Made by a program: the position numbers and the translations under genes
The notes under the pieces: generated by a model
What the model was told of the DNA's origin: nothing
What the model saw: the letters and a program-made list of their open reading frames with translations, nothing else
The model's database searches: none
Source: Flavobacterium okayamense
Lineage (GTDB): Bacteria; Bacteroidota; Bacteroidia; Flavobacteriales; Flavobacteriaceae
Length of the DNA stretch: 64,000 nt
Reading direction: 5' to 3'
NCBI RefSeq assembly: GCF_019702945.1
Contig: NZ_AP024749.1
Span: forward strand, 1,736,001 to 1,800,000
In this document: one piece after another, positions 5,022 through 45,400 of the stretch
Layout of the letters: every line of letters starts with the position of its first letter
Numbering within the stretch: the stretch's first letter is position 1

Positions 5022-6457
5022 GTCAACAAAGTTTTCATAGAATCATATTTAAAAACACTGGGCTGTTTGGTATTTCCCAATTTGTAAAGATTGTGGTTAA
5101 GTTAATTTCTAATAAAGTAGCTGCCATCTTTTTAGGAACTGCTGGAATAGGAATGATTGGTTTGCTTGAAAATATTTTAGCGCTTATTCAAGGTTTTACA
5201 AGTTTAGGAATTGCTTCAAGTAGTGTTAGGGAAGTTGCTGTATTAGATGGTGATTCTAAAAAAGAAAAACGACTTTTAAAAGTTTTATACCATTGGGCAA
5301 TAATTACTGGTTTTTTAGGATTTTTAGTAGCAATAATCTTTTCAAATTATATCAATAAGGAAGTTTTTGAGAACGAAAATCATTTGAATTGGGTTTTAGC
5401 ATTGAGTGTGTATTTTATTTTTAGCGCTATAACATCAATTCGATTATCAGTTTTACAAGCTAAAAAACAAGTGTCTAAAATTGTTCAGTTTCATATTGTT
5501 TCAGCTGTAATCACTGCAATTTTAGCAATTACGCTTTACTATTTTTTTCAAGAAGAAGGAATAATTCCAGTATTTATATTTTCATCGTTTTTTCAGTTTT
5601 TATTTAGCTTTTATTTAACTAGAAATATTCAAATTTCTAAAGATAAAATAAAGTTTAAAGAAGTTGTAAATGAGGGAATGCCGATGATTAAATTAGGTAT
5701 ACTTTTATCAATAAGTGCTATTTTCGGACAAATATGTTTTTACATAATCCGATGGTTTTTAAAAGAAAAATATTCGTTTGATACTTTGGGAATTTATCAA
5801 GTAAGTAATACTTTATTAGTTGGATATTTAGGTTTAGTTTTTTCAGCTATGGCAAATGATTATTATCCTAGGTTATGTAATTATGAAAACGATACTAAGC
5901 GATTGAATGATTTAGTAAACGATCAAACTGAAATGGCTTTATTAGTAGTTGTACCTGCTATTTTAATGTTATACTTAATAGCACCATTTTTAATTGAGTT
6001 GCTCTATTCTAAAGACTTTTTAGATGTTCTGAAAGTCTTAAAATTTGGATTGTTTGCAATAGTTTTAAAGGCAATTGTGTGGCCAATTGGCTTCATTCCA
6101 TTGATTAAAGGTAATAAATTACTTTATCTAAAACAAAACCTTTTAGGTGATGGAGTAAATGTAATTGCTTCAATTTTATTGTTTTATCAGTTTGGATTTT
6201 TAGGTCTAGGAATTGCAATGGTTACTATGTTTTTTATTTCAGGAATTTATAATTTTTACACTGCGAAATTGAATTATAATTTCCAATTTAGGAAGAACAC
6301 TTTACAAGTATTATTTGTTTCGTGCTTAATAGGCTTATTAGCGGTTTTAACAATTTTATTTACTGAGTTTTCAAACTTTAATTATTACATCATTTTACTC
6401 TTTATAGTTTCTGTACTATATTCATTTTTTACGATGAAAAATAAGTTAACAGTTTAG
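5018..6457 (+). CDS. O-antigen/polysaccharide flippase, Wzx family
   Basis: 479-residue integral membrane protein with about 12 hydrophobic segments spread over its full length, the usual size for Wzx/MATE-type lipid-linked oligosaccharide flippases. Features seen are an N-terminal F..S..VKI..KLISNKVAAIFLGTAGIGMIGL segment and YYPRL after the sixth or seventh helix, both familiar from Bacteroidota O-antigen translocases. By family knowledge it moves undecaprenyl-linked repeat units across the inner membrane. The ATGA overlap with the upstream glycosyltransferase places it in the same transcript. No Wzy polymerase or ligase is visible in this window. Confidence 0.85.
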   Translation: MSQQSFHRIIFKNTGLFGISQFVKIVVKLISNKVAAIFLGTAGIGMIGLLENILALIQGFTSLGIASSSVREVAVLDGDSKKEKRLLKVLYHWAIITGFLGFLVAIIFSNYINKEVFENENHLNWVLALSVYFIFSAITSIRLSVLQAKKQVSKIVQFHIVSAVITAILAITLYYFFQEEGIIPVFIFSSFFQFLFSFYLTRNIQISKDKIKFKEVVNEGMPMIKLGILLSISAIFGQICFYIIRWFLKEKYSFDTLGIYQVSNTLLVGYLGLVFSAMANDYYPRLCNYENDTKRLNDLVNDQTEMALLVVVPAILMLYLIAPFLIELLYSKDFLDVLKVLKFGLFAIVLKAIVWPIGFIPLIKGNKLLYLKQNLLGDGVNVIASILLFYQFGFLGLGIAMVTMFFISGIYNFYTAKLNYNFQFRKNTLQVLFVSCLIGLLAVLTILFTEFSNFNYYIILLFIVSVLYSFFTMKNKLTV

Positions 6458-29344: not shown

Positions 29345-29428
29345 AGCTTTTCCTGCTTTCCGCTATATCTTTTTTGTCAGTTCGAGCGAAGTCGAGAACA
29401 AAAAAGGATGTCGCTTCAATCAGGGCTA
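29345..29428. repeat. Composite repeat: one palindrome nested in another
   Basis: Outer arms read CCTGCTTTCCGCTATATC...TTTTTTGT on the left and ACAAAAAAGGAT...CAATCAGGGCTAA on the right, pairing as ATCTTTTTTGT against ACAAAAAAGGAT. Between them sits a copy (29381-29398) of the TTCGAGCGAAGTCGAGAA element also found near 14750. The outer end motif resembles the CCCGCTATC...ATCGGGGCTAA ends at 40551-40592. It appears that one repeat type has landed in the loop of another. Confidence 0.65.
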
Positions 29429-29472
29429 ATTTTCTTTAAGAATAATATTTTACTTTAACAATTAGATTTAAA

Positions 29473-43315: not shown

Positions 43316-43332
43316 TATTTTAATAAGTATTA

Positions 43333-43367
43333 AAAAAAATCCCGATTTTAATTCGGGATTTTTTGTT
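43333..43367. terminator. Terminator downstream of valS
   Basis: AAATCCCGA pairs with TCGGGATTT around a 7-base loop, with A and T runs on the two sides. It ends valS and can also stop minus-strand transcripts that come out of the cassette-like array. Confidence 0.9.
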
Positions 43368-43380
43368 TTAATATTGTGAG

Positions 43381-43396
43381 TAGCCATTGTTAAAGG
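43381..43396 (-). repeat. Cassette boundary D: CCATT-GTTAAAG site
   Basis: The plus strand reads CCATTGTTAAAGG. The GTTAAAG arm (43389-43395) is the inverse of CTTTAAC (43917-43923) on the other side of the 162-residue gene. The CCATTGTT core is shared with site B at 44772-44779. Confidence 0.55.
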
Positions 43397-43402
43397 TAAT
43401 TT

Positions 43403-43891
43403 CTATTTGATAATCAAATAATCAACAAGTAATAAAAATAAAATTGATCCTGAGATTATATAATGACTCAAACTGAGTTCATGATTTTTTCTAAGTTGAA
43501 TAAATAGAAAAATCGAGAAAGTAATCGACGCTATTAATAATACTATAACTCCAAAGAGTAAGTAAAAATTGTCGATTTGATTTTTCGAAATTGTATTGAA
43601 GAGAACAATCGAAAGCGTCAAAGTATATATCAACCAAGAAATGATACCAAGCAACCAGCCATAAATATTTCGCTTCAATATTAGAACTGCAGCGGCGAAT
43701 GCTAAGGATGAAACAACGAAACTGAAATGATAGTTTTTAACTAGTTTCCAGTAAGAGACATTATCACCTAACATTTTTTTTAGTTCAACTATATAATGGT
43801 ATAGAGTAGTAGTTATTATGCAAAATACTGCCACTGAAAACAGAAGTTGAAAAATAGCTAGAATCTTTTCAGTTTTACTAATACTATTCAT
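43403..43891 (-). CDS. Hypothetical membrane protein (third cassette gene)
   Basis: 162 residues with four hydrophobic segments (about 10-30, 50-66, 73-95 and 108-130) and a possible fifth at the C-terminus (ILFLLLVDYLII). No family was recognised. It should be an inner-membrane protein. The gene is bounded by CTTTAAC/GTTAAAG inverse arms and follows a 165-base structured spacer. It lies downstream of two other small orphan genes on the same strand and may depend on a promoter at 45301. Confidence 0.6.
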   Translation of the reverse strand: MNSISKTEKILAIFQLLFSVAVFCIITTTLYHYIVELKKMLGDNVSYWKLVKNYHFSFVVSSLAFAAAVLILKRNIYGWLLGIISWLIYTLTLSIVLFNTISKNQIDNFYLLFGVIVLLIASITFSIFLFIQLRKNHELSLSHYIISGSILFLLLVDYLIIK

Positions 43892-43916
43892 TTGAAGATG
43901 ATGTTCATGAAAATTT

Positions 43917-44081
43917 CTTTAACGTTGTGTGACTAAAGAAAGTGACGTAAGCCACAACTAAGCCAAACCAAAAATAGACAAAATTTAGAAAATTAGTAGC
44001 CTCGAGCACAAACTGCGAACTGATGAAACAATTTTCGGAATATTCCTGATCTAGCCGTTACTTGTAATCGCTGTTGTAGGT
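43917..44081 (-). repeat. Cassette boundary C: long structured spacer
   Basis: 165 bases between two small genes. At one end CTTTAACGTTGTG leads to an inverted pair GTTGTG (43924-43929) and CACAAC (43953-43958). At the other, GTTGTAGGT (44073-44081) is the inverse of ACCTACAAC at 44764-44772 beyond the neighbouring gene. The middle has the palindrome GGAATATTCC (44036-44045). Its general shape recalls long attC-type sites, and similar spacers are familiar from flavobacterial genomes (recall). Confidence 0.55.
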
Positions 44082-44084
44082 TGT

Positions 44085-44747
44085 TTATTTTAATCCTTGT
44101 TGTGTCAATTTTCCTAAAATATAGGTCTCGCCAGAATCAAATCCACAGCCAATGTAAATTTCATTTGAAGACTTGATTATATTTTCTTTATAAGTTTCTA
44201 TATTTTCTAAAATTATTAAGTTTAAAATACCATTGTATATTAAAACTTCTAATTCACCGTTTAGTTCAACATTTGAAGATTTTATTATTTCAAAATAACT
44301 TGGAATCATATACATTTTTGGGAGATAAATAGGTTCAACATTCCAATCTTCAGAATCTTCCATTGGTGATATTATTGAACCGCTTAAATAAATTGTAATG
44401 TATTCTTTGTTATTATCAATAGATGTAAAAATCCCAAAATAAAGACCTTTAATATCATTGGGTAAATAATTTTCTTTAAGAACTTTTTTGGTAAAACTAT
44501 TAAATTCATTAATAAGTTTTTCAAGTTCAGATTCTGTTATCAGGTTTTTATTATCAAAATTTAAGAGTTTTTTTATTTCATTTATTCCATTCTGTATAGA
44601 AACTTTGTTTTTAATTTGTTTTTTTAACAAACTATCAACTAATTCCCATTCAATCTCTCTATTTTCTATTAGGATTTTTCTAGTTTGATTTTGGCTGTTG
44701 GAAATAAGTCCAAACAACGAACAGATAAGTATTAATATTTTTTTCAC
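44085..44747 (-). CDS. Hypothetical secreted protein (second cassette gene)
   Basis: 220 residues from a GTG start; the GTG is supported by an immediate signal peptide (KKILILICSLFGLISNSQNQ). The mature part is Lys/Asn/Ile rich with one Cys near the C-terminus and no known domain. The gene is flanked by GTTGTAGGT and ACCTACAAC, inverse copies of each other, which lie 3 bases past its stop and 17 bases before its start. Location is probably periplasmic or surface. No function can be given. Confidence 0.6.
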   Translation of the reverse strand: MKKILILICSLFGLISNSQNQTRKILIENREIEWELVDSLLKKQIKNKVSIQNGINEIKKLLNFDNKNLITESELEKLINEFNSFTKKVLKENYLPNDIKGLYFGIFTSIDNNKEYITIYLSGSIISPMEDSEDWNVEPIYLPKMYMIPSYFEIIKSSNVELNGELEVLIYNGILNLIILENIETYKENIIKSSNEIYIGCGFDSGETYILGKLTQQGLK

Positions 44748-44763
44748 GATTTATTTTTAAATT

Positions 44764-44786
44764 ACCTACAACCATTGTTGTAGTGC
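44764..44786 (-). repeat. Cassette boundary B: perfect hairpin CTACAAC-CATT-GTTGTAG
   Basis: CTACAAC (44766-44772) and GTTGTAG (44777-44783) form a 7-bp stem with a CATT loop. The outer bases differ on the two sides: AC before the left arm belongs to the 220-residue gene's pair of arms, and TGC after the right arm belongs to the 153-residue gene's pair. This hybrid make-up is what recombination between two cassette ends would leave. Confidence 0.65.
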
Positions 44787-44787
44787 G

Positions 44788-45249
44788 TTATTTTTCTAAA
44801 TTATTTACGATTTCAACAAATTCTTCATAGCTGTCCGCTGGTGGATTTTCATACTGAACATATCCAAGATTTGTGTCAAAATATTTTTTCATTTCAATCA
44901 GACATTGGTCTTCGTTTTCAGTATTCAAATTTCCACTCATTTCAGCATTTCTTGAAATTCCGAAAATCATTGTTCCATCTTCATTGTAAAAAATCATTCC
45001 GTGTTTATTCAAGTTTTTCTCGTCAGTATTTCTCCAATAAATTCTATTTGGGTAATTTTCATTTTTCTCAAGAAAAGACATTAACTCATCAGTATTTTCA
45101 AATTCGTGAGTCGGATTATCAGAGTATTCAGGAATCAAATATTCACTCGAACTTTCTTTTCTGTTTGGTAGAAAATGATTCAAAAAATCATCTGCTAATT
45201 TTTTCGACCGAGTCTTTTTAATCACGTATATGTCGGCTAAATATCCCAT
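44788..45249 (-). CDS. Hypothetical cytoplasmic protein (first cassette gene)
   Basis: 153 residues, acidic, with no signal peptide or membrane segment. It opens MGYLADIYVIKKTRSKKLADDFLNHF and contains RIYWRNTD and MIFYNEDGTMIFGISRN. No family was recognised. The gene sits exactly between GCACTACAAC (45261-45270) and GTTGTAGTGC (44777-44786), 10-base perfect inverse arms, one base from its stop and 11 bases from its start. It is first in the array and is preceded by a promoter element and a second hairpin. Function unknown. Confidence 0.65.
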   Translation of the reverse strand: MGYLADIYVIKKTRSKKLADDFLNHFLPNRKESSSEYLIPEYSDNPTHEFENTDELMSFLEKNENYPNRIYWRNTDEKNLNKHGMIFYNEDGTMIFGISRNAEMSGNLNTENEDQCLIEMKKYFDTNLGYVQYENPPADSYEEFVEIVNNLEK

Positions 45250-45260
45250 TTTGTTTTAAT

Positions 45261-45296
45261 GCACTACAACCTGTTTATATGAGCTATAAACTAACG
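45261..45296 (-). repeat. Cassette boundary A: leading site with hairpin
   Basis: GCACTACAAC (45261-45270) is the inverse of the arm after the first cassette gene. Next to it GTTTATA (45273-45279) and TATAAAC (45285-45291) form a perfect 7-bp stem with a TGAGC loop. In the minus-strand direction this lies between the promoter element and the first gene, the place where an integron has its attI site. Confidence 0.6.
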
Positions 45297-45300
45297 TTTT

Positions 45301-45308
45301 CAAATATA
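45301..45308 (-). promoter_or_regulatory. TAnnTTTG -7 promoter element reading into the cassette-like array
   Basis: The complement reads TATATTTG. Transcription would start just before boundary site A and run through the three small genes. No TTG -33 box at normal spacing was found. In position it matches a cassette promoter. Confidence 0.5.
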
Positions 45309-45365
45309 TTAAAAAATTGTGTAAATTATAAAACACCACATTAGTTTCAATGAAATTTTATAAAC

Positions 45366-45400
45366 AAAAAAATCCCAAGCTAATGCTCGGGATTTTTTTA
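45366..45400 (-). terminator. Terminator at the end of the envelope operon
   Basis: ATCCC and GGGAT with inner AGC and GCT pair (one mismatch, TAAT loop), with A and T runs on either side. It closes the minus-strand operon that ends at 45398 and separates it from the cassette-like array. Confidence 0.85.

Follow-up and report, generated by a model that had tools for sequence, protein, structure and literature searches.

A probable decayed cassette array of an integron-like system in Flavobacterium okayamense

Three short genes with inverted ends

The window, i.e. the whole 64,000-nt stretch of DNA analysed here, comes from the genome of Flavobacterium okayamense (2.78 Mb, single contig; G000:C1:1736001-1800000). 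Between 43.38 and 45.28 kb it carries three short minus-strand genes, flanked by the terminator of valS and the terminator of another minus-strand gene; the Pfam search gave no match above the curated cut-off for any of their products (153, 220 and 162 aa). Perfect inverted ends of 10, 9 and 7 bp surround cassettes 1, 2 and 3, respectively, with one minus-strand open reading frame (ORF) inside each. An initial annotation, made from the DNA sequence without database searches, took the genes for mobile cassettes moved by a site-specific recombinase acting on folded sites. The three pairs are located where it had placed them and are perfectly inverse, but their extent was underestimated, as pairing resumes after an unpaired position: in cassette 1, GTTGTAGTGC-A-TTA at one end corresponds to GTTGTAGTGC-G-TTA at the other. 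Comparison with relatives supports the cassette interpretation: they have arrays of such units with a recombinase linked to them and a likely entry site, the hairpin arms covary, and cassette copies are bounded by the site cores. We conclude that the block very probably belongs to an integron-like system of Bacteroidota and is a small cassette array in decay.

The window by itself is suggestive of cassettes, and the proof is drawn from other genomes. In 43316-45400, inverted pairs that begin with GTT and have cassette-like spacing number 3 at a length of 9 bp or more (mean 0.23 and maximum 3 in 200 dinucleotide shuffles of this region, so that at least one shuffle equals the observed count) and 6 at a length of 7 bp or more (mean 2.3, maximum 10).

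Related sites, arrays and duplicated cassettes

The true site of the system appears to be an element of about 130-160 nt located 3' of each gene, of which the window retains one full copy. The structural model R1, which the window site matches with 119 bits (E 4.1e-25), was built from 15 aligned sites including this one. Similar sites do occur elsewhere in the genome, a point on which the initial annotation had made its interpretation depend: R1 matches 16 places with E<=1, of which 12 have E<1e-4, and 7 of the 12 lie on the minus strand in a 10-kb main cluster (1,817,919-1,827,918), with further clusters at 2098776-2099628 and 2386158-2387291. The literal string CCATTGTTGTAG, on which a genome search had been suggested, was rejected as a genome-wide site, as it is found at 21 places with at most one mismatch compared to 23 for the reversed control; judged by this string, the interpretation would have counted as refuted on that point.

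Among the 199 genus genomes, for each of which no more than 17 candidates were scored, R1 detects sites in 82; at the level of the phylum it does so in 43 of 395 genomes, representing 30 of 170 genera. From the fetched stretches we used 134 sites in 15 groups, a subset of 150 matches from which the 16 weakest (E above 0.002, some of them on the opposite strand) had been dropped; 7 of the 134 have no AAC or GTT at the expected position. In all 10 groups with at least two sites, the sites share one strand. The array of Flavobacterium sp. IMCC34852 (G142) comprises 52 sites on one strand over 33.9 kb, with all 51 intervals shorter than 1.5 kb, and in 103 of 111 cassettes overall the longest ORF is on the array strand. 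Two pairs of toxin-antitoxin genes were seen at one locus (L106, genome G028): ParE/ParD on the array strand just beyond the last clear site (2352-2896), and HigB with a helix-turn-helix partner on the opposite strand between two sites (5763-6451). They are reminiscent of the toxin-antitoxin cassettes carried by large classical integrons.

Duplication was examined in G142 on 10 pairs of like cassettes. In 6 of them the two copies show no difference over 447-642 nt, and in the other 4 identity is 97.5-99.8%. Relative to the start of GTT, exact identity stops 2-9 nt upstream and 4-7 nt downstream. The 100 nt past the downstream GTT are 24-39% alike and the 100 nt preceding the upstream GTT 29-87%, with high values where the preceding site is of the same family. 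One cassette of the F. okayamense genome recurs in another genome (G090) with 92% identity over 657 columns; the first 60 nt from GTT agree at 58 positions and the 60 nt before GTT at 18. These alignments show units that run from GTT to GTT and are duplicated as such, and we infer that the cassettes are mobile.

Two arms of the site

We compared the 5' end of each cassette with the reverse complement of its own 3' end. At least 5 bases match beyond GTT in 97 of 112 cassettes (mean 11.5 and maximum 23 in 2,000 within-array permutations), whereas across a site, i.e. between two different cassettes, agreement amounts to 1.31 bases, compared with 1.15 for random pairs. The ends of a cassette are thereby shown to be able to pair with each other and not with those of the neighbour. 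Within this R arm, positions 4-9 agree in 102-107 of the 112 cassettes, position 10 in 79, position 11 in none and positions 12-15 in 105, 98, 97 and 81, with chance level beyond. The base at position 11 of the 5' end is A in 128 of 130 cases, and in 100 of the 112 pairs it stands opposite C; the 5' end thus reads GTT-N7-A-N4. GTT itself was imposed by the way in which the cores were located. The core is GTTR followed by variable bases, and GTTRRRY occurs in just 2 of 130 core sites, in agreement with the earlier remark that the core does not strictly fit the integron consensus. In the window, cassette 1 (outside the 112-cassette counts) fits the R-arm rule, cassette 2 fits it with position 10 unpaired as well, and cassette 3 deviates more.

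The L arm was analysed in an alignment (A6) of 60 of the 134 sites, selected by us. Over its 16 base pairs, 93.4% of cells are paired, double changes number 243 and covariation is 0.611; controls with the partner slid by 1-3 columns gave 30-42%, 43-59 and 0.067-0.113, respectively, and none of 500 shuffles of A6 attains the observed value on four of five measures. The unpaired positions inside the arm are A.C in 60 of 60 sites and T.G in 48 of 60, and one site subfamily may carry an extra base. From the centre outwards, the L arm follows the pattern G-T-T-N7-A-N4, as the R arm does. In our reading, the site is likely to consist of an R and an L half-site, alike and each of 15 bp, with an asymmetric spacer of about 1 versus 5 nt, and it forms an imperfect palindrome R''-L''-L'-R' with covarying arms, as attC does.

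The box TAnnTTTG, the consensus of the -7 promoter box of Bacteroidota, is present on the array strand in 52 of the 60 aligned sites (91 of 134 overall), mostly at positions 71-77 of the site, compared to 3 of 60 on the other strand and 4.4 in mononucleotide shuffles. The -33 element TTG was found at the usual distance in just 5 of these 52 sites. The position of the box in the hairpin loop suggests a promoter-like -7 element aimed at the next cassette.

A recombinase, a likely entry site and a proposed mechanism

In relatives, the arrays lie downstream and on the same strand of a gene for a tyrosine recombinase of about 347 aa. When a recombinase was paired with the nearest site no more than 12 kb away, among the matches listed, the site followed it on the same strand in 13 of 13 and 5 of 5 pairs. 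The genus comparison used 123 of the 150 listed site matches (counted by hand) and 115 of the listed recombinase matches, the others being mostly second pieces of the same genes. For the phylum, about 70 and about 100 matches were listed, and the comparison used 46 and 25 of them, respectively. Sites and recombinase co-occur in the genus (66 genomes with both, 50 with the recombinase alone, 16 with sites alone and 67 with neither; p 1e-7). The initial annotation had suggested looking for a tyrosine recombinase elsewhere: it is found beside the arrays of relatives, but the F. okayamense genome itself has no match to the N-terminal domain of this family, and its best integron-integrase match (9.3e-20) falls within the weak group of the genus.

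The recombinase, encoded at L100:2278-3321 in Flavobacterium sp. IMCC34852, possesses an N-terminal stretch of its own, of about 60 residues. The insertion characteristic of IntI, located ahead of patch III, is absent: in the alignment with 2a3v, 20 residues (249-268) correspond to 62 of IntI4 (180-241), and with TIGR02249 (cut-off 265 bits) none of the 199 genus genomes scored above the cut-off. The closest structures and profiles of the catalytic part include XerA and archaeal XerC-like proteins (5hxy, 4a8e; NF040815); the structure comparison covered residues 68-341 of an AlphaFold model with mean pLDDT 81.6 and pTM 0.50. A version of 581 aa (L105:1067-2812, G179) has a long N-terminal half that by eye looks like repeats of the small N-terminal domain.

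The first own-paired cassette start (9-10 bp) is 89-104 nt past the recombinase stop in 8 of 14 3' flanks. A regular expression of the form TATA...AGTT matches at 89-129 nt in the 11 flanks examined (11 of the 14 recombinases, leaving out L106, L105 and L051). While TATA, A and GTT were imposed by the search, the constant spacing and the C at -3 (11 of 11) were not, and TATANRCNA|GTT, about 90-130 nt past the recombinase stop, is a likely entry site.

A complete system, as seen in relatives, comprises the recombinase gene, the likely entry site and a row of same-strand cassettes, each usually with one gene and a site of about 130 nt. A cassette would be excised as a circle, in which its 5' end GTT-N7-A-N4 meets its 3' end N4-C-N7-AAC; one folded DNA strand could then present the R and L half-sites, with the A.C mismatch in each marking strand and polarity, and the recombinase would recombine this folded structure with the entry site, the crossover falling between G and TT. 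Since a cassette end pairs only with the other end of the same cassette, a complete R arm would be available only in the free circle, and integration should therefore be favoured over excision once the cassette is in an array. On this sequence evidence we propose that recombination takes place and that the system works like an integron.

The block in the window and its probable decay

The features of the block are collected in Table 1. The promoter element that had been noticed reading into it indeed resembles a -7 box. Further 3' of it, CATATAAACAG|GTT precedes cassette 1 as a near-match to the entry-site motif, with a single difference, at the last base, when compared by eye; it is suggestive of a relic entry site.

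Table 1. Features of the cassette block (positions in the window)
Feature	Position	Strand	Basis or remark
Promoter-like TATATTTG	45301..45308	-	resembles Bacteroidota -7 box TAnnTTTG; points into array
Candidate relic attI-like entry site TATAAACAG	45271..45279	-	immediately 5' of cassette 1 GTT
Cassette 1	45270..44777	-	inverted ends GTTGTAGTGC/GCACTACAAC
Cassette 1 5' end (R') GTTGTAGTGC-A-TTA	45257..45270	-	sequence
Cassette 1 gene, 153 aa	44788..45249	-	ORF
Cassette 1 3' end (R'') TAACGCACTACAAC	44777..44790	-	sequence
AATG, probable remnant of the site 3' of cassette 1, mostly deleted	44773..44776	-	sequence
Cassette 2	44772..44073	-	inverted ends GTTGTAGGT/ACCTACAAC
Cassette 2 5' end (R') GTTGTAGGT-AA-TTTA	44758..44772	-	sequence
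Cassette 2 gene, 220 aa, GTG start; 210-aa form also recorded	44085..44747	-	ORF
Cassette 2 3' end (R'') TAAACAACCTACAAC	44073..44087	-	sequence
Putative sole full attC-like site left in window, hybrid of two site subfamilies	43918..44078	-	R1 match
L'' arm of window site, A-GCGATTACAAGTAACGGC, TACAAGTA type	44054..44072	-	alignment
L' arm, spacer and GTT of window site, GTCACTTTCTTTAGTCACACAACGTT, TTTCTTTA type	43921..43946	-	alignment
Cassette 3	43923..43389	-	inverted ends GTTAAAG/CTTTAAC
Cassette 3 5' end (R') GTTAAAGAAATTTTC	43909..43923	-	sequence
Cassette 3 gene, 162 aa	43403..43891	-	ORF
Cassette 3 3' end (R'') GAAATTACCTTTAAC	43389..43403	-	sequence
AATGGCTACTC, probable truncated start of the site 3' of cassette 3, beside valS terminator	43378..43388	-	sequence

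Past cassette 1, AATG is probably all that remains of a site, and past cassette 3, AATGGCTA. We read both as short site remnants, which would account for the CCATTGTT shared by two junctions; AAC-AATGG also opens the full sites L104:7523, L104:9155 and L107:81. The full site itself combines an L'' arm from one subfamily with an L' arm from another. We infer an old array that has lost its recombinase and whose hairpins are undergoing deletion. With no recombinase gene left, only a few bases remaining of two sites and a hybrid in place of the third, the cassettes are probably stranded.

The 153-aa protein has 116 homologues (E<=0.001, 93-45% identity), the named ones mostly from scattered Bacteroidota (Kordia, Tenacibaculum, Fulvitalea, Psychroserpens and others) and one labelled as a Limnohabitans metagenome-assembled genome. 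The Psychroserpens gene is flanked by GTTGTGGTGC and GACACCACAAC, and a long palindrome comes next. Beyond the two entries of the genome itself, the 220-aa protein has 7 homologues: 6 on short European Nucleotide Archive contigs and one in Flavobacterium sp. 102 (56%). The stretch 3' of its gene recurs at two other places in the same genome and in 10 other genus genomes (of 199), a few of which match by short pieces, possibly by chance. When the whole 1.9-kb block was compared with 60 relatives, 8 besides the genome itself matched, by short pieces only. In another part of the window (29345-29431, minus strand), Rfam identifies a Flavo-1 RNA (69.4 bits), where R1 gives no match at E<=1.

Weighing of the interpretation

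Several observations speak against a cassette array, or against parts of the proposed system. The window site folds no better than shuffles (hairpin z +1.05); single-strand folding, as foreseen by the initial annotation, is seen in a related site in G032 (z -4.45) and in one in Psychroserpens (z -3.52). The own-end test is passed by only 2 of 6 pairs in the main cluster of the F. okayamense genome and by 0 of 1 elsewhere in it, which perhaps reflects sites missed there. The L-arm structure was drawn by eye from the same alignment on which it was tested, and its count of pair types is matched by 376 of the 500 shuffles. In 3 of the 10 G142 pairs, similarity remains at 81-87% in the 100 nt that precede the core, as would be expected if the preceding sites are of one family. 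Only 7 of the 20 top recombinase loci have a site within 1.5 kb, and in one of the 7 (L063) it is upstream and on the opposite strand. Among the genus genomes, 16 of the 82 with sites have no close recombinase (cut E<1e-25), and 50 of the 116 with the recombinase show no site. Cassette ends were seen by eye at 3 of 10 loci with 153-aa homologues (L023, L024, L030), at 6 there were none and 1 was cut off. Finally, no exact empty site was found, the adjoining downstream 371-aa gene being present only in F. okayamense among the 40 genomes searched.

Could the sites be a dispersed repeat family, either similar to miniature inverted-repeat transposable elements or an RNA gene, sitting between small genes by chance? 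They are structured repeats scattered in intergenic DNA, as such a family would be, but the identity of duplicated units spans gene and site, the ends of a unit pair mutually, the sites keep a fixed order and strand with respect to the recombinase wherever pairs were compared, and Rfam gives nothing at gathering score over the window site; we find this explanation hardly credible. It is also improbable, albeit to a lesser degree, that the recombinase is a housekeeping enzyme or an unrelated neighbour and that XerC/XerD or another enzyme acting in trans moves the cassettes, since all 18 nearest pairs among the matches listed have the site downstream on the same strand, and the spacing and the C at -3 before the first GTT are constant in all 11 aligned 3' flanks.

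A more serious competitor, although still an unlikely one in our view, is a classical integron, with IntI and attC, that has merely diverged and is seen here in its CALIN form. CALIN are characterized in a passage of PMC9668308 as at least two attC within 4 kb, without intI; the window has one full site and two remnants, and the main cluster of the genome 7 sites in 10 kb. Against this explanation stand the TIGR02249 result, the 20 residues in place of the 62 of IntI4 and the rarity of GTTRRRY. IntI-type proteins do occur elsewhere in the phylum: NF011946 (E<=1e-40) detects mostly full-length IntI-like proteins, none above the cut-off, in 107 of 395 genomes, but none of these belongs to this genus and all except G255 are outside the class. 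R1, which may fail to recognize classical attC, matches nothing in 11 fetched IntI-type loci; its matches in NF011946-positive genomes were checked at L206 and L207. A scan of these 11 loci and 9 upstream stretches (L215 not among them) found a clean GTTAGAC site in G261 alone, with ends pairing over at most 13 nt, and for this reason we make no claim of uniqueness for the long R pairing of the system described here. The G261 site (G261:C1, L203:1210-3712) is classical-looking and about 60 nt long; it follows an IntI-type gene on the same strand, in a genome from another class of the phylum. A further chained match, L213, was taken as chance.

Comparison with known systems

Integrons have been thought nearly absent from this group. 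A passage of the IntegronFinder 2.0 paper mentions that only In0 elements had been reported earlier for Bacteroidetes, and one complete integron, in Salinibacter ruber, and a passage of a review (PMC8618304) names Bacteroidota among the integron phyla. Among the open-access papers listed in literature searches, which cover neither preprints nor most subscription papers, none describes such arrays for Flavobacterium or Bacteroidia in its title or abstract. If our interpretation is correct, relatives of F. okayamense carry a system with its own recombinase, and the array of 52 sites found in Flavobacterium would imply that both the core and the recombinase targeted by standard searches are the wrong ones. 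The system may also be a vehicle for orphan genes common to distant Bacteroidota, and a natural test of what is essential in an integron: a passage of PMC8138268 calls the IntI insertion essential to integron function, yet it is absent here.

The likeness to integrons extends to the recombinase, the likely entry site, the same-strand array of mostly one-gene cassettes, duplicated cassettes, a GTT core with complementary cassette ends, a site with an imperfect hairpin, and toxin-antitoxin genes. In contrast to integrons, the recombinase has no IntI insertion, has an additional N-terminal domain and is transcribed towards the array; the core is GTTR followed by variable bases and not GTTRRRY; and pairing in the R arm extends over about 15 positions, interrupted by a constant mismatch at position 11. 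The same-direction layout is shared with the integrons of Treponema, which differ in that the portion of PMC3607928 consulted describes them as integrons with intI genes. In classical attC, according to a part of PMC2727003, extrahelical bases and the unpaired spacer set strand choice and efficiency, whereas here A.C mismatches are found in both arms. Unlike XerA and the archaeal XerC-like proteins, the family described here has an N-terminal addition of about 60 residues and adjoins cassette arrays; Xer enzymes are not known to sit at such arrays. Measured against the integron definition, the system has the folded site and the arrays, and likely the entry site, and differs in the IntI insertion and the GTTRRRY core. 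On balance, we think that it probably represents a separate integron lineage of Bacteroidota, with a recombinase devoid of the IntI insertion, an N-terminal domain of its own and GTT-N7-A-N4 half-sites marked by A.C.

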